The notes under the pieces were generated by a model, which did not search any database, was not told the DNA's origin, and worked only from the letters and a program-made list of their open reading frames with translations. The translations under genes and the position numbers were made by a program. This document shows, piece after piece, positions 275-6,655 of a stretch of 6,655 nucleotides of DNA. Source of the DNA: Candidatus Terraquivivens yellowstonensis. GTDB lineage: Archaea; Thermoproteota; Nitrososphaeria_A; Caldarchaeales; Wolframiiraptoraceae. Within the stretch, counting starts at the first letter, position 1, and the number at the start of each line of letters is the position of its first letter. The DNA is taken from the NCBI GenBank assembly GCA_023539445.1, contig JAKCEW010000025.1, forward strand, positions 1-6,655, read 5' to 3'.

Positions 275-733
275 TTGGCATCATATAAAGACGAGAACGT
301 TCCGATTACGCTTAAGATAAAGAGGAAGGGTTTCGAGGTAATAGTACAGGGCGACATACCTACGATAACTAGACAGCTCGATGCGTTATCTGAGTTCATA
401 GAGGCGCTCGACGAAAGGTTGCATGTGGAGGCCGAAAAAGTCGAGGTGGAAAAACCACCTTCCCCCCAAGAACTTTCCTCAGTATCCACCTCGGACATCC
501 CAACAATAAAGCCATCGAAGAGCACCACGGAAAACCTAGTTAACATATTCCAGACGCCTTGGGGTAGGCAACCGCGCACGCTGGCAGAAGTCATTAAGGC
601 ACTCGAGACGAATGCTGTACCGGACACCCCGGAGAAGGTCTCGGTGTATTTGGCTAGGCTCGTAAAGAAGGGCTTCCTCAGGAGAATAGAAAAGGATGGC
701 AAGTGGGCATACTTTCATGTTGCTGAGTCCTGA
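275..733 (+). CDS. Two-domain protein with C-terminal winged-helix-like region, function unknown
   Basis: A 152-residue soluble protein I cannot assign to a named family. Residues about 10-26 read as a beta hairpin (ITLKIKRKGFEVIVQGD), followed by an amphipathic helix (about 31-50). A Pro/Ser/Glu-rich linker spans about 55-87. Residues about 100-150 look like a winged helix: TLAEVIKAL, a probable recognition helix around TPEKVSVYLARLVKKGFL, then a wing (RRIEKDGKWAYF). This layout suggests a DNA- or protein-binding regulator; that is inference. The start is a TTG at 275; the same frame has TAA at 269-271 and no ATG or GTG before the first domain, so TTG is the only sensible choice. No Shine-Dalgarno site is seen; an AT-rich region at about 237-250 could supply the promoter. 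There is no TM segment. The next gene has its own promoter, so this is probably monocistronic. Confidence 0.8.
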   Translation: MASYKDENVPITLKIKRKGFEVIVQGDIPTITRQLDALSEFIEALDERLHVEAEKVEVEKPPSPQELSSVSTSDIPTIKPSKSTTENLVNIFQTPWGRQPRTLAEVIKALETNAVPDTPEKVSVYLARLVKKGFLRRIEKDGKWAYFHVAES

Positions 734-791: not shown

Positions 792-1049
792 ATGATTAGC
801 ACCGCAAGGGTTGTGGTATTCTTCTCGGCCGTTGCCCTCGGAATAGTAAGCCTCCTCACTGGCCTAGTCCTATACTTCTGGCCTCGCGGTCCTAGGTCAG
901 GCTGGCTTGTAATCATGGGGCTTAACAAGAGCGGCTGGTCCGACCTACACGTGTATTCCTCGATTCTAGCACTTCTCGCGATAGCTGTTCATTTAATTTT
1001 GAATTGGAAGTCGATAAAACTCTACGTAAAATGTCTTAAGGAGATCTAA
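792..1049 (+). CDS. Very small DUF4405-type (cytochrome b561-like) membrane protein
   Basis: An 85-residue protein with two predicted membrane helices, about residues 7-29 and 53-71. The middle and end follow the DUF4405 pattern that I recognise: a GL..SGWSDLH stretch leading to H53, then H67 and the ILNW end (W72). H53 and H67 are 14 residues apart on one face of the second helix, the arrangement expected of heme ligands in b-type membrane cytochromes. In the family such domains are linked to membrane electron transfer; heme binding here is inferred. At 85 residues and two helices it is about the minimal size, so it probably dimerises or partners another protein to form a four-helix bundle. 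An upstream ATG at 782 is out of frame and stops after five codons. The start at 792 is supported by the TATA spacing. It converges with the minus-strand gene to its right. Confidence 0.8.
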   Translation: MISTARVVVFFSAVALGIVSLLTGLVLYFWPRGPRSGWLVIMGLNKSGWSDLHVYSSILALLAIAVHLILNWKSIKLYVKCLKEI

Positions 1050-1507: not shown

Positions 1508-2392
1508 ATGATTGGGGAGGCGCTGACGCTTACGGCGGCTTTATGTTGGGCCGTTGGTGCAAACCTTTACAAGGTAGGCCTAAGGAGTATGGATCCGATT
1601 AAGCTAAATCTCGTAAGGAGTTGCGCTGCGGCCGCCATTCTTTTAATATTCGTACTCGTATGGGACAAAAGCGGATACTTTCTTTTACTTTATACACCAT
1701 CGGCCGCTTACCTTATCGCAGCCTCCCTCATAGGTTGGGCGCTTGGTGACACACTCTACCTCATCAGCTTAAAGCACATAGGCGTATCCCATGCGGTACC
1801 GTTAACCTATTCCTATCCACTCTTTTTGGTCCCGATGAGCATGTTTATACTTCGAGAACAATTTACCCCGAACGTAGCCGCAGGCACGGTCTTAATAGTG
1901 CTAGCGGTGTGGTTGCTCAGCGGACAGGGAAAATTGCAACTCGACGGTTCTGCTAAGCTTGGCTTCATAGCAGGGGTCTTAACCGCTGTCTGCTGGGCTC
2001 TGGGCGTGACGCTGTTCAAGCTAGTCGTGGAGGTTTTCGATCCAGTATTTACGGCGTTTTTCAAGATATTAATCGTCCTACCTTTCCTCGCGGCATATCT
2101 CAAGGTCTTTGGCTCCCGGGATTCATCTCCCGTAGTTCCGCAAAAAAGATCGGAAGTCATAGCGGCAATGCTGGGCGGAATAATCTCCGTAGGGCTAGGC
2201 GACATGATTTACTTGGTAGGCTTGAGCTTAACGCAAGCAAACACCGCCGTACCTCTCGGCTCCTCAACTCCCATATTCTCTGCAATACTGGCCGCAATCT
2301 TTCTAAAGGAGAGGCTGACGAGTAGATCCGCGATAAGTTCGGTACTGGTCGTGCTGGGCGCAATCCTTCTCCTAAGCCCCATTCGTTATTAA
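1508..2392 (+). CDS. EamA-family (drug/metabolite transporter superfamily) permease
   Basis: A 294-residue, about ten-helix inner membrane protein built of two EamA repeats, the family's normal length and plan. The duplication is visible by eye: LTAALCWAVGANLYK (about 8-22) matches LTAVCWALGVTLFK (about 158-171). The ALGDTLYLISL segment (78-88) matches GLGDMIYLVGL (229-239). SHAVPLTYSYPLF (94-106) matches NTAVPLGSSTPIF (245-257), and REQFTPNVAAG (116-126) matches KERLTSRSAIS (267-277). Family members export or exchange small metabolites or amino acids; the substrate cannot be read from the sequence. The ATG at 1508 fits the TATA spacing. The stop lies 14 bases from the convergent ATPase gene's stop. 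The gene seems transcribed alone, with no sign of damage. Confidence 0.93.
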   Translation: MIGEALTLTAALCWAVGANLYKVGLRSMDPIKLNLVRSCAAAAILLIFVLVWDKSGYFLLLYTPSAAYLIAASLIGWALGDTLYLISLKHIGVSHAVPLTYSYPLFLVPMSMFILREQFTPNVAAGTVLIVLAVWLLSGQGKLQLDGSAKLGFIAGVLTAVCWALGVTLFKLVVEVFDPVFTAFFKILIVLPFLAAYLKVFGSRDSSPVVPQKRSEVIAAMLGGIISVGLGDMIYLVGLSLTQANTAVPLGSSTPIFSAILAAIFLKERLTSRSAISSVLVVLGAILLLSPIRY

Positions 2393-2406: not shown

Positions 2407-4287
2407 TTACTGTTCCATCAGCCTTATTGCCGATTCGTATACCTCGATTGCACCGCTCTCCTTAAGCTTTTTCAGAGCCTTAAACACTGCCTTCTTCGGT
2501 GCAGGCGTCTCTACGAAGATCTTCCAGAACGGGTAATACCCTTTTTGCGCCCTCAGAGTATTCAATATAATCTCCGCGACCCTATCCTCATCAACTTCTT
2601 CTAAACGCTCCATGCCGAAAGATTCGGCTTCAATAAACAATTTTTCAACATTCCTCTGGATTCCCATGCCTTCGCTAACTAGCATTTGGATTACCTCAAG
2701 CCCGATTCCATACTTCCGTAACACTTGCTCCGGCTCCATGTAGTAGGAGTATATTTCCTTGGCTACATCTCCTACCTCAAACACCTTATTCCTGACAAGC
2801 ATTCTTAGGAGGGCAGCCCTTCTCACAATCTCGGATATGATTTCCTCCTTTGTCTTCGCGAGCCTTATCGCTATCATATCTAGGACGCTACTATTTGAAA
2901 AGTCCACTTTGAAAGAGTCAGTGAGCGGATCCCACTCTGCGATCGTCAAGTATTTGTTGTAATCCTCGACCTCCCATATGTAGCGCATCCTCCTGCCATA
3001 GGTCTTACCTTCTGAAGAAGGCCTTGCGAGGTTCACACGTTCGATGAGCGCGACCGCGTCCAGCAAGGGTATGTGGCTAGGAGGAATGTTCATCGGTGGG
3101 CTGACAAGCCTCTTAACGACAGACTCTATACTCTCCGCATGGATTGTCGAGAGGCCACCGTGTCCTGTTGCGATTGCTTGGAATAATACGAATGCCTCCT
3201 CTCCCCTAACCTCTCCAACTATGAGATAGTCTGGCCTGTATCTTAGGCTCGTCTTGACCAGATCGTAGAGCGTTATCTCGCCGATCTTATAGGACCCGAG
3301 TCCATAACTCTCTCTCGTCATGAATCTAACCCAGTTATCGCTCGGTATATTCAACTCTGCCGTCTCCTCACATGTGACTATCTTCATCCTAGGTTTTATG
3401 AAGCATGAAAGGGCGTTTAGACTCGTCGTTTTCCCGCTTCCTGTTGCTCCAGCGACGAGTATGTTTGCTTTGTGCTCTATCAAAACCCAGAAGTAAGCGG
3501 CCATCTCGGGACTTAGCACATTACTCGCTATGAGTTCTGTTATAGCAAAGGGCTTCTCTCTAAACTTTCTTATCGTGAAAGTGCTCCCTCTAGGCGAAAT
3601 CTCCTCCCTGAAAGTCGCCGCGAGCCTATGCTTGCCATAGATCATGGCATCGAGTATGGGGAATGCAGAAGAGACGTGTTTCTCAGACTTGTGGGCTAGC
3701 TGGATTATGAAATCATCCAAGACCTCCCGGTCCGTGAAGACTATGTTCGTTGGAATGCTCTCATAATCCCTATGCCAAACGTATACGGGCACGTTCAAAC
3801 CGTCGCATGAAATGTCCTCTATCTTGTAGTCCTCCATCAGTACGTTGAGCGGGCCGAAGCCGGTCATGTCCCTATCGAGATAATAAAATATCTTCTCTTT
3901 CGACTTCTCGTCAAACTTCCTGAAGGTCTTTCCATATTTTTTGATAAGCTTCTCAGCAGTATTCAGCAAGATCTTCCTAGCCTCTTCCTCTTCTCCAATC
4001 CTAGGAGGCTCGAGTTCCTTTGAAAGTATGTCTTTCAACTTTTCTAAGAGCAAGATCTCCTCTGGGGATAGTTGGACCTCTGTCGCAAAGTATTCCGGCT
4101 CTATAGTCCGGCTGGAATGCGAGGCTATTACAACCTCCGCAACACCTTCCCTTATTGGATAACGCTCCAAGACCTTATAATTCTCAGGTATTGGTCTAAT
4201 CTCTATCCCTTTCCAAGGATTCGGAACCTCTTTTGTCTTATCTTTTTTCTTCCAGATTGCTAGTGTGATATTCTTACCCCAGTTCAC
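2407..4287 (-). CDS. Type IV pilus/archaellum-type secretion ATPase (FlaI/TadA-like)
   Basis: A 626-residue cytoplasmic hexameric motor of the GspE/VirB11/FlaI superfamily, which powers assembly or secretion by type IV filament machines. The N-terminal domain (about 95-250) has archaeal FlaI/TadA hallmarks: FYYLDRDMTGFGPL, YKIEDISCDG, YESIPTNIVF and the arginine-rich GKHRLAATFREEISPRGS. The ATPase core is intact: Walker A GATGSGKT (280-287, K286), Asp-box-like TCEETAELNIP (305-315), Walker B-like DYLIVGEVRG (353-362, E359) and His box TGHGGLSTIHAE (374-385). It is longer than typical FlaI (about 500-550 residues) mainly because of about 100 extra C-terminal residues, ending in a possible winged helix (about 585-626). 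The start is GTG at 4287, supported by a TATA box about 29 bases ahead; no Shine-Dalgarno site. It is divergent from the roadblock/TadC operon, its likely partners. No TM segment. Whether the machine is a pilus, an archaellum or a secretion system is not decided. Confidence 0.95.
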   Translation of the reverse strand: MNWGKNITLAIWKKKDKTKEVPNPWKGIEIRPIPENYKVLERYPIREGVAEVVIASHSSRTIEPEYFATEVQLSPEEILLLEKLKDILSKELEPPRIGEEEEARKILLNTAEKLIKKYGKTFRKFDEKSKEKIFYYLDRDMTGFGPLNVLMEDYKIEDISCDGLNVPVYVWHRDYESIPTNIVFTDREVLDDFIIQLAHKSEKHVSSAFPILDAMIYGKHRLAATFREEISPRGSTFTIRKFREKPFAITELIASNVLSPEMAAYFWVLIEHKANILVAGATGSGKTTSLNALSCFIKPRMKIVTCEETAELNIPSDNWVRFMTRESYGLGSYKIGEITLYDLVKTSLRYRPDYLIVGEVRGEEAFVLFQAIATGHGGLSTIHAESIESVVKRLVSPPMNIPPSHIPLLDAVALIERVNLARPSSEGKTYGRRMRYIWEVEDYNKYLTIAEWDPLTDSFKVDFSNSSVLDMIAIRLAKTKEEIISEIVRRAALLRMLVRNKVFEVGDVAKEIYSYYMEPEQVLRKYGIGLEVIQMLVSEGMGIQRNVEKLFIEAESFGMERLEEVDEDRVAEIILNTLRAQKGYYPFWKIFVETPAPKKAVFKALKKLKESGAIEVYESAIRLMEQ

Positions 4288-4310
4288 TGTTAAAACAATA
4301 AAAAAATACT

Positions 4311-4320
4311 GGAATATATC
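4311..4320 (-). promoter_or_regulatory. TATA box for the secretion ATPase gene
   Basis: On the minus strand the sequence reads GATATATTCC, an archaeal TATA-like element centred about 29 bases before the GTG start at 4287. Transcription would begin at or within about three bases of the start codon. It lies back to back with the plus-strand promoter elements at 4344-4350. Confidence 0.55.
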
Positions 4321-4343
4321 CTCTATGGCGGCCCTAGGAAAAT

Positions 4344-4350
4344 GTTATAA
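4344..4350 (+). promoter_or_regulatory. TATA box (distal) for the roadblock-TadC operon
   Basis: GTTATAA, centred near 4347, predicts initiation near 4373. That gives a leader of about 11 bases before the ATG at 4384. The leader is A-rich and has no Shine-Dalgarno motif. Confidence 0.5.
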
Positions 4351-4370
4351 GCCAAAAAGTAAAGAAAAAA

Positions 4371-4378
4371 CTATAAAC
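4371..4378 (+). promoter_or_regulatory. Possible second TATA box (proximal) for the operon
   Basis: CTATAAAC, centred near 4374, predicts initiation near 4400. That coincides with the in-frame GTG (4399) and ATG (4402) codons of the first operon gene. If used, it would give a leaderless message and a protein shorter by five or six residues. This is an alternative to, or works beside, the box at 4344-4350. Confidence 0.35.
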
Positions 4379-4383
4379 TAAAA

Positions 4384-4926
4384 ATGGTTGATACGGTCGT
4401 GATGCTTAGTAATGGTTTAGTAGGTTTCGCATTAGTAGGGCTGTTTCTCCTTTTTAGAAGAGGGAAGAAGACAACTCCTCAACAGACGCGTGCAGAGGAG
4501 CAAGCTCAGAAAAATTCTGAGGCTCTTCCCCCCAAGACTGGAGGTGACGCAGAAACGAAGCCCACTGCGCCCGAGGGACCGGTTAGGTTCGCTTCCCTCG
4601 GAGAGTTAGCCTCCGCGATCGGGGCCAAACATCTCATACTCTTCAACCAGTACGGAATACCCATAGAGTCGTATAACGTCCGTGAGGGGCGCGGAATTTC
4701 TGTTCCGCTCGCCGAATTTGTGTCAACGATGCGAAAGCTTAGTCCAGATTTTGATTCTATAGTTTCCGGGGATGGCCGGAAGATCATTCTTTCATCTATC
4801 GAGAAGGTTGGAGATATTGAGGTCTTTGCCCTAGCCGTTGGCGATTCAGAAATGAAAGTTAAAGCGGATGAGGTCCGAGAATTTCTTAAAGCATACCTCT
4901 CGGAGAGTTTGGGGAGGCGCAAATGA
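4384..4926 (+). CDS. Membrane-anchored roadblock/longin-like protein
   Basis: A 180-residue protein with one N-terminal membrane helix (about 8-24, GLVGFALVGLFLLF) followed at once by RRGKK. By the positive-inside rule this leaves the rest in the cytoplasm. Residues about 28-66 form a polar Gln/Glu/Pro-rich linker. Residues about 70-178 look like a roadblock/LC7 (longin-like) domain: helix SLGELASAIG, strand LILFNQYGIPIES, helix PLAEFVSTMRKL, strands around SGDGRKIILSSI and IEVFALAVGD, and a final helix. The GDGRK(I/L)(I/L) segment and the G.PI turn recur in the next gene's product, which supports relatedness. It is first in an operon and overlaps the next gene by ATGA. The predicted role is tethering a roadblock dimer next to the ATPase/TadC machine; that is inference. 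ATG 4384 is used here; ATG 4402 is an alternative. The domain call is moderately sure, weaker than for the next gene. Confidence 0.85.
   Translation: MVDTVVMLSNGLVGFALVGLFLLFRRGKKTTPQQTRAEEQAQKNSEALPPKTGGDAETKPTAPEGPVRFASLGELASAIGAKHLILFNQYGIPIESYNVREGRGISVPLAEFVSTMRKLSPDFDSIVSGDGRKIILSSIEKVGDIEVFALAVGDSEMKVKADEVREFLKAYLSESLGRRK
4911..4917 (+). promoter_or_regulatory. Strong ribosome binding site for the second roadblock gene
   Basis: GGGGAGG lies five bases before the ATG at 4923, inside the end of the preceding gene. Together with the ATGA stop/start overlap it predicts translational coupling of the two roadblock proteins and fixes the start codon. Confidence 0.75.
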
Positions 4927-5288
4927 CGGCTAATAGCGAAGAGCAGTTGCTAGTAAGCCTGCTCAAGGCGAGCAGCCGAGGGTCTATCGAGATGGCGATG
5001 ATTTTATCCGAAAACGGAACACCTATAGCTTACGAAAGTGATAATAAATACTACGACCCAGAATACGTCGCTACAGCCGCCGCAGTTATCAGCGGTGCGG
5101 TATCCTCAGTCATGGAGCTTTTAAATGCCAAAGGTTATAAACAGGTAAGCGTAGACCTTGGGGATGGTAGGAAACTTTTGATAAGGCAGTATAAGAAACA
5201 ACAGAAGCTTTATCTCGTGTGTTTGACCAACACTAACCCCAACTTGGGATTCATCGAATTATTGTTGGAGGAGCACCTTCCCAAGTAG
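4923..5288 (+). CDS. Roadblock/LC7-domain protein (MglB-like)
   Basis: A 121-residue soluble, single-domain protein spanning essentially one roadblock/LC7 fold, the usual family size. Features in order: N-terminal helix EEQLLVSLLKASS, strand EMAMILSENGTPIAYES (23-39), long Ala/Val-rich helix YVATAAAVISGAVSSVMELL (48-67), strands KQVSVDLGDGRKLLIRQY (73-90) and KLYLVCLTNTN (95-105), then the conserved NLGFIELLLEEHL helix (107-119). Roadblock proteins form homo- or heterodimers that act as platforms or activating proteins for small Ras-like GTPases, as MglB does for MglA in bacteria. No GTPase gene is in the window. It overlaps the preceding gene by four bases and is followed after 15 bases by the TadC gene, so a roadblock heterodimer linked to the secretion machine is likely (inference). 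Confidence 0.9.
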   Translation: MTANSEEQLLVSLLKASSRGSIEMAMILSENGTPIAYESDNKYYDPEYVATAAAVISGAVSSVMELLNAKGYKQVSVDLGDGRKLLIRQYKKQQKLYLVCLTNTNPNLGFIELLLEEHLPK

Positions 5289-5291
5289 AAT

Positions 5292-5296
5292 GGAGG
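5292..5296 (+). promoter_or_regulatory. Ribosome binding site for the TadC-like gene
   Basis: GGAGG lies seven bases before the ATG at 5304. A nearer-upstream ATG at 5290 is in another frame and overlaps this motif, so 5304 is the supported start. Confidence 0.7.
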
Positions 5297-5303
5297 AGCA
5301 AGG

Positions 5304-6655
5304 ATGGGCTTTAAGGACGGGCTCGTGGGGTTCTTCTATACGAAGTTCAACACACTCGGATCGCTCCTTCTGAAGGTCTTTCCAGGAATAGCTTCAAAAC
5401 TCGACGCGGCCATTATCAGGATCCATCCTGAGGCCTATGCCTCCATGGTTGCAGGCCTAACACTCATCGCGACCTTGGTATGCGTTCCGCTGAGTGTTTT
5501 GCTCTACTTTTTCACCGGGAATCTTCTAAGCCTTGTAATCCTAGCTGTTCCGCTCATAGTCATGCTTCTTGGGGTCTTCTATCCTTACTCTCAGGCCTCC
5601 TCGATCTCCTCCGTTTTCGAGAGCGAGGTCCCCTATGCCGCCACGTATCTCGCGGTCATGGCCACTGGTGGAGTCCCACCTTACATGAGTCTGAAGAGGC
5701 TTTCTAAGAGCGAGCTAATGCCGAACCTTGCTAAGGTAGCAAGCGTAGCAAACATAAAGGTCGAAGCAACTGGAGAGGATCCTATCTCCGCCATCGAGGA
5801 CATGGTGAAGAGCGTTAAATCGAAGGATTTCAAGGACCTTCTCTTGGGCTACGTCTCGACGCTCAGGAGCGGCGGGGATGTTGTCCACTTCTTGATCAGG
5901 AAAACCGAGATGGTCTTCCAGAACAGGACAGCGAACATGAAGATCATCGGTGAGAGGCTTGGGATGTTAATGGAGGCATATGCGGCCACCGTCATGATGC
6001 TCGCGCTAGCCATCTACATAATCTTCATAATATCGAGGGGCCTTCCGTCGGAGTACTTCTTATTCCCCGCGGAGCAGTTCGTGGTCCTATCCTACCTCAT
6101 CATGCCGCTTATGGCAGGAATGTTCATATACCTTGCGGACATCACCCAACCCAAATACCCGCTAATGGATAAGAGACCTTATAGGACCTTTTTGGCGTGG
6201 TTGCCTCTTGGGATAGCCTTCTTCATACTTTTCGTTACACCATTCTACGTCGACACCCTGAGGTACATCACACCATTCAACTTTACAGCGGACTTGATAG
6301 TCAGGCTCAGGATGCTGATGGGGCTCGAGAGAGGGTATGAGTCAACGATAGCCATGTGTTTAGGCTTCCTCGTCCTCTTTGCACCCGGAGCTATCGCTTG
6401 GGAGAGGTATGGTAAGGAAAACATATCCATCCTCCGTGGCATGACTAGGTTCCTCAGGGACCTGACGGAGACCAGAAAGACGGGAATGAGCCCGGAGAAG
6501 TGCATAAGGCTGTTATCGGACAGGAATTACAGCGGGTTCACCAAGCATCTCAAGCTGATGAGCAGGCAGATTGGCTGGGGCGCCTCTCTGAAGAAGGTCT
6601 ATAAGGATTTTGAGAGGAGGGTTCACGGATGGCTCGCAAAGGCCGGAATGTTCAT
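5304..6655 (+). CDS. Archaeal TadC/FlaJ-type platform protein (3' end missing)
   Basis: An open frame of 450 codons without a stop, cut by the window end. It is the polytopic inner-membrane platform that partners the ATPase in type IV filament machines. The order is: two helices (about 47-70 and 74-97); a first cytoplasmic T2SSF-like domain (about 103-220, with LAVMATGGVPPYMSLKRLS and LLLGYVSTLRSGGDVVHFL); four more helices (about 222-244, 257-280, 297-316, 346-366); then a second T2SSF-like domain (from about 376, with TRFLRDLTETRKTGMSPEKC and MSRQIGWGASLKKVYKDF). Two T2SSF domains in one chain, and the FLRDL..GMSPEK / WG.SL signature, are typical of archaeal TadC/FlaJ. By comparison about 100 residues and two or three helices should lie beyond the edge. 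It is third in the roadblock operon and has a good Shine-Dalgarno site. Its motor is presumably the divergent ATPase. Confidence 0.93.
   Translation, partial: MGFKDGLVGFFYTKFNTLGSLLLKVFPGIASKLDAAIIRIHPEAYASMVAGLTLIATLVCVPLSVLLYFFTGNLLSLVILAVPLIVMLLGVFYPYSQASSISSVFESEVPYAATYLAVMATGGVPPYMSLKRLSKSELMPNLAKVASVANIKVEATGEDPISAIEDMVKSVKSKDFKDLLLGYVSTLRSGGDVVHFLIRKTEMVFQNRTANMKIIGERLGMLMEAYAATVMMLALAIYIIFIISRGLPSEYFLFPAEQFVVLSYLIMPLMAGMFIYLADITQPKYPLMDKRPYRTFLAWLPLGIAFFILFVTPFYVDTLRYITPFNFTADLIVRLRMLMGLERGYESTIAMCLGFLVLFAPGAIAWERYGKENISILRGMTRFLRDLTETRKTGMSPEKCIRLLSDRNYSGFTKHLKLMSRQIGWGASLKKVYKDFERRVHGWLAKAGMF

Follow-up and report, generated by a model that had tools for sequence, protein, structure and literature searches.

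The control of pili by MglA and MglB is known from bacteria. In Myxococcus xanthus, GTP-bound MglA, which is restrained by MglB, acts on the pilus through SgmX (PMC9481161). In archaea, roadblock proteins (arCOG02603) were noted in a variety of type IV pilus loci, in a sentence of the survey by Makarova et al. (2016) (PMC4858521), and no conserved neighbours were reported for the archaeal MglA Group 4 (PMC4316618). These two papers, the former for the roadblock only, were the only ones on a link between archaeal MglA and type IV pili that we found in the literature outside subscription journals. In the same literature, no report was found of an MglA-type GTPase in an archaeal pilus operon or of a GTPase loss in which the roadblock pair is retained.

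Genes of the pilus locus and its roadblock pair

The window analyzed here is a whole contig of 6,655 bp (G000:C23) from a genome of the Wolframiiraptoraceae (Aigarchaeota/Caldarchaeales), which is 1.16 Mb in size and 95.8% complete. The original prediction described a minus-strand ATPase gene diverging from two roadblock genes and a TadC gene on the plus strand, and all four genes were confirmed (Table 1). The two roadblock genes overlap by 4 nt (ATGA, 4923-4926), and 15 nt separate roadblock B from TadC. The left part of the contig (275-2392) carries ordinary genes, and similar-sized genes are found in the same order in G001 (L062), a genome of the same genus.

Table 1. Features of the 6,655-bp window
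Feature	Positions	Strand	Basis or remark
wHTH protein, Penicillinase_R-like	275-733		
DUF4405 protein	792-1049		
DUF4870 protein	1092-1436	minus	
EamA transporter	1508-2392		
Type IV pilus assembly ATPase, FlaI/TadA kind, 626 aa	2407-4287	minus	Pfam T2SSE, 1.9e-34
Probable TATA box (TTATAAG) for the roadblock-TadC operon	4345-4351	plus	Kept upstream of roadblock A in 6 of 7 aligned relatives
Roadblock A, 180 aa	4384-4926	plus	N-terminal membrane helix, linker and roadblock/MglB-fold domain predicted by AlphaFold and Foldseek
Roadblock B, soluble roadblock/MglB-fold protein, 121 aa	4923-5288	plus	Pfam Robl_LC7; AlphaFold and Foldseek
TadC/ArlJ-type platform protein	5304-6655	plus	Pfam T2SSF, 4.1e-13; gene truncated where the contig ends, with 450 of ~590 residues

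The ATPase motifs are intact (Walker A GATGSGKTT at 280, GEVRG at 358, and the His box STIHAES at 380). The top PDB match of the ATPase was an archaeal secretion ATPase (2oap, 7.6e-98), and FlaI (4ii7) matched at 3.5e-68. Archaellum identity was rejected: the protein is a relative of FlaI but scored 346 bits against the FlaI equivalog cut-off of 550. It was the sole pilus-type ATPase detected in the window genome, where one other match was weak. The TadC protein shares 80% identity with its 590-aa homologue in G005, and the rest of its gene was sought on the other contigs of the window genome and not found. In relatives (G001, G005, and others), a pilin with the class III signal SGISPVVATVILVAIAIVIAIAVAFW or a close variant is encoded just downstream of TadC wherever the sequence extends far enough. 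No pilin was found in the window, nor by Pilin_N in its genome; this model is weak here because even the true pilins of the relatives score below its cut-off. A prepilin peptidase above the Arc_PepC_II cut-off is encoded in the window genome (G000:C11:19637). The window carries the assembly locus, with the ATPase and the TadC platform, of the only type IV pilus system detected in this genome, and the pilin lies downstream in relatives. The original view, that of a type IV filament system into which a roadblock module is built, is supported by the pilins of the relatives and by the peptidase. The accompanying generalization that archaeal ATPase and TadC genes usually stay adjacent on one strand does not hold throughout the order, since in sister families the two genes are convergent, divergent, or tandem.

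Two further features of the pilus ATPases were observed. The window ATPase has a C-terminal extension of ~110 aa (residues ~517-626; window 2410-2740) with weak winged-helix similarity (PF22560, 0.028; DUF2250, 0.058). Its full-length alignment was limited to families f1 and f2, and in one f4 genome the alignment reached residue 623. Inteins break the pilus ATPase within the His box in L042, L043, L070, and L156 (frames of 1069-1095 aa); Pfam Intein_splicing matched at about 3e-15 to 3e-17 in the last three, and the same insert is found in L042. The junctions read ..FQAIA / SVSW...LLHN / TGHGG, and the insertion point corresponds to residues 373/374 of the window ATPase, which has no intein.

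The original prediction also placed both small proteins in the roadblock fold. Roadblock B matched Robl_LC7 at 8.3e-6, its 25.9 bits exceeding the cut-off of 23, and the top Foldseek matches of its AlphaFold model (pLDDT 79) were MglB proteins (M. xanthus 6hjm, E=1e-7, TM 0.77). Its top PDB match by sequence was the MK-D1 roadblock 9jue (E=1.6e-4). The Asgard-type explanation raised by this match was set aside, because MglB ranks higher by fold and the GTPase of the relatives is MglA-like. Roadblock A had no Pfam or NCBIfam match. Its AlphaFold model consists of a membrane-length N-terminal helix (residues 2-26), a low-confidence or disordered linker (~27-65), and a domain (~66-180) with the helix and strand order of the roadblock fold. 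The top Foldseek PDB match was Thermus thermophilus MglB (1j3w, E=2.3e-4), followed by Ragulator/Rag and MK-D1 roadblocks. Given the moderate confidence of the model (mean pLDDT 64, with most of the domain at 70-87), the evidence for the fold of roadblock A is good and not final. A sequence-profile search of this protein against the PDB returned mainly membrane-helix noise and a sub-threshold dynein roadblock match, and its identity was settled by the fold search. The two proteins resemble each other weakly at the profile level (hhalign probability 29%). The predicted structures assign the roadblock fold to both, with MglB as the top match in the PDB, so that the original placement held for B by profile and for A by fold only.

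Distribution of an MglA-like GTPase

In most other genera of the family, the gene directly after the second roadblock gene encodes a GTPase that its sequence identifies as MglA-like. In genera g4 and g5, as well as in two genomes of g2 (G019 and G020), roadblock B and TadC flank the gene of this ~180-aa GTPase, and the gene order is A-B-GTPase-TadC-pilin. Other g2 genomes have a roadblock pair on either side of the ATPase, one in the order A-B-TadC and one, not adjoining TadC, in the order A-B-GTPase. The best solved match of the sister-genus GTPase was T. thermophilus MglA (1.9e-9). Thr-Thr in G2 is invariant, and GTPGQ is found in G3 in most rows, with variants such as GSPGQ and GTPGH in others; Thr-Thr and GTPGQ are features of MglA Groups 2-5 according to Wuichet and Sogaard-Andersen (PMC4316618). 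The spacing from the G1 Lys to G2 is mostly 26-31, which is close to the value for T. thermophilus MglA in the printed alignment and exceeds the 19 of some other archaeal homologues, and such an insertion is a bacterial MglA trait (PMC4316618). In genus g5, a separate single roadblock gene is also located beside the ATPase (L067:11386-12650, L068:11185-12221). The gene before it encodes a protein of ~196 aa that has no Pfam match and, judged by eye, is possibly thioredoxin-like.

In the genus of the window (g1), neither a single-sequence search (E<=0.001) nor a profile detected an MglA-like GTPase in G000-G005. The roadblock module is carried by three of these genomes (G000, G001, and G005; 96-98% complete). 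In these three, the generic small-GTP model gave only longer frames or weak partial matches, and the same model recovers the GTPases of G012 and G013. The genome-wide absence of the GTPase is thus a result of searches. A gene missed by the assembly is possible in the window genome alone, because it is 95.8% complete, and is less so in all three genomes. The original suggestion of possible GTPase control was therefore borne out for the sister genera, where an MglA-like GTPase is encoded in the same operon, and not for the window's genus, with none detectable in three module-bearing genomes. In addition, the GTPase copy of G010 is shortened to 148 aa, with an internal deletion and a change of GKTT to GKTK, and has no detected roadblock pair next to it; it appears to be decaying.

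In phylogenetic trees, the GTPase-less, TadC-side roadblock copies of g1 and g2 formed one clade, with support of 91/96 for roadblock B and 96/99 for roadblock A. One long-branched f2 row also fell within this clade in the roadblock A tree, and its placement is unsure. The pair appears to have been duplicated, or to have become separate from the GTPase, before the divergence of g1 and part of g2, and the GTPase would then have been lost in g1. The GTPase-less pairs are under purifying selection (dN/dS about 0.1-0.3). Within g1, dN/dS was 0.13-0.25 for B and 0.21-0.31 for A, with dS near saturation. An Asp-Gly pair is typical of the MglB proteins that are coupled to GTPases of MglA Groups 2-5, and the window roadblock B has Asn31-Gly32 in its place. 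It is the only one of the 34 aligned roadblock B rows with Asn for Asp, its genus mates keep Asp, and only one branch of the B tree is longer than that of the window protein. As a single change, the substitution at N31 is suggestive only.

Linkage to the pilus motor and proposed roles of the pair

The linkage was surveyed in the window genome and 21 relatives of the same family. The ATPase ortholog and roadblock B were both present in 18 of the 22 genomes and both absent in the other four (G002, G003, G004, and G009), three of which belong to the same genus. Such a pattern would have odds of 1 in 7,315 among independent genomes, but these genomes are not independent. Of the 18 genomes with both genes, nearly all have the ATPase gene divergent from an A-B-(GTPase)-TadC operon. 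In G007, the ATPase and TadC form a divergent pair on one contig and the roadblock genes lie on another contig beside a pilin-like gene. Because of this shared presence and absence, the layout of ATPase, roadblock, and TadC genes is not due to chance, and the co-occurrence in relatives on which the original prediction relied was recovered with the order kept in nearly all genomes.

We also surveyed about 400 genomes of the phylum, in which MglA-like GTPases were found in 71 and roadblock B-like genes in 72. In three other families, namely f29 (L209, L211), f52 (L217), and f66 (L197), roadblock or GTPase genes have pilus genes no more than a few kb away. In f24, f2, and others, the roadblock and GTPase genes are away from pilus genes. 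Thus, the module is found in several contexts, with the pilus as one recurrent partner, and the A-B-GTPase trio of f2 shows that the trio is not always part of a pilus system. Most pilus loci of the sister families have no roadblock gene. Other arrangements were also observed: tandem GTPase-like genes, one of ~400 aa, followed by a roadblock gene (L203:6097-8412, L204:6596-8907), with similar ~400-aa frames in other f5 genomes, and a conserved set of roadblock, membrane protein, and P-loop genes in families f44 and f49 (L214, L222, and L223), which adjoins a probable HMG-CoA synthase-like gene, named by eye.

Building on the gene identities, the roadblock folds, the conserved order and co-occurrence, and a GTPase present in sister genera and undetected in g1, we propose that the GTPase of an ancestral MglA/MglB-like pilus switch was lost here and that the pair was kept as a membrane-tethered scaffold or regulator. 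We consider this somewhat better than an even prospect. Roadblock proteins dimerise as a rule, and because their genes are adjacent and overlapping, roadblocks A and B would form a heterodimer under the membrane, next to the motor of ATPase and TadC. Roadblock A would tether the pair to the membrane beside TadC through its N-terminal helix and linker, and B would be soluble. The ancestral pair would have been the MglB side of a GTPase switch, with the GTPase docking on the pair to place or gate pilus assembly, as MglA does in M. xanthus. With the GTPase lost in g1, the pair, under purifying selection, probably has a GTPase-independent role as a membrane scaffold or motor regulator. More broadly, and as a tentative proposal that we rate at a little under even, some archaea may have an operon-encoded MglA/MglB-like switch on type IV pili with a membrane-tethered roadblock heterodimer, from which one genus lost the GTPase and kept the pair for a GTPase-independent role on the motor.

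A coincidental linkage, in which the roadblock operon merely sits between the ATPase and TadC genes, was already unlikely and is rejected as highly improbable. The separate contig of the G007 roadblock pair and the distance of the f2 pairs from ATPase and TadC would fit it. However, it conflicts with the shared presence and absence in 22 genomes, the conserved order, the overlapping genes, the linkage to pilus genes in f29, f52, and f66, and the same tendency across archaea, as it is given in the sentence of Makarova et al. 2016 (PMC4858521).

The g1 pair might instead still work with a GTPase encoded elsewhere, either a diverged one or an unrelated P-loop protein, and control would stay GTPase-based. 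Roadblock B of the window is still conserved (dN/dS of 0.13-0.15 against its genus relatives), archaea keep other GTPases, and the window genome gave 12 small_GTP matches, mostly in frames of 390-700 aa. This explanation is nevertheless unlikely given that no MglA-like or other short Ras-like GTPase was found in the three module-bearing genomes of the genus; the lone exception to the Asp-Gly pair is also consistent with a relaxed GTPase contact, although it concerns the window protein and its genus mates keep Asp. We also doubt that these archaea all use the pair mainly as a structural motor part or to regulate the pilus ATPase directly, with the GTPase as an optional add-on. Every motor-bearing genome of the family has retained the pair along with the ATPase and TadC, the GTPase is lost or moved, and the predicted membrane anchor of roadblock A would suit such a role. 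However, f2 keeps the trio including the GTPase without pilus neighbours, and most pilus loci of sister families have no roadblock; the pair is therefore not a required motor part.

With MglA-like GTPases and MglB-fold proteins encoded in archaeal pilus operons, it becomes directly testable whether archaea share the bacterial way of positioning or gating pili, and whether the link between MglA/MglB and pili is ancient or borrowed. If an ancestral switch did lose its GTPase with the pair retained, the GTPase-less version of g1 is a natural experiment on the role of roadblock proteins without a GTPase. Tests are conceivable because Wolframiiraptor gerlachensis, whose genome (L042) has the GTPase as well as both roadblock pairs, has been taken into culture (PMC9246946).

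Comparison with known systems

Among the NCBIfam models, TadC and the pilin scored best against UpsF and UpsA of the Sulfolobus Ups/Aap pili. These scores are far under the family cut-offs (67.6 against 400 for TadC/UpsF and 35.3 against 130 for pilin/UpsA), thereby indicating relatives and not members. The archaeal type IV pilus loci of the 2016 survey share with the window a roadblock protein encoded in a pilus locus with ATPase and TadC (PMC4858521). The one sentence on them there describes no membrane-anchored partner, tandem pair, operon-encoded MglA-type GTPase, or GTPase loss. The original statement that no characterised archaeal system has such a layout must be narrowed accordingly, since roadblock proteins in archaeal pilus loci had been noted in that sentence.

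The MglA/MglB polarity module of M. xanthus and T. thermophilus resembles the archaeal locus in the MglB fold predicted for both roadblocks, in the type IV pilus as the linked machine, and in the MglA-like GTPase adjoining the roadblock pair in sister genera. In contrast, the archaeal locus has two dissimilar roadblocks, one of them predicted to be membrane anchored, and its genes are inside the pilus operon. In the archaeal GTPase, Thr replaces the Arg finger of Group 1 and the motif reads GTPGQ rather than TVPGQ, and the window's genus has no detectable GTPase. The actinobacterial conservons (CvnABCD) also couple, within an operon, a roadblock protein and a GTPase of MglA Groups 2-5 with GTPGQ. 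The archaeal loci differ from them in showing no histidine kinase or CvnC, and the pilus motor is coupled instead.
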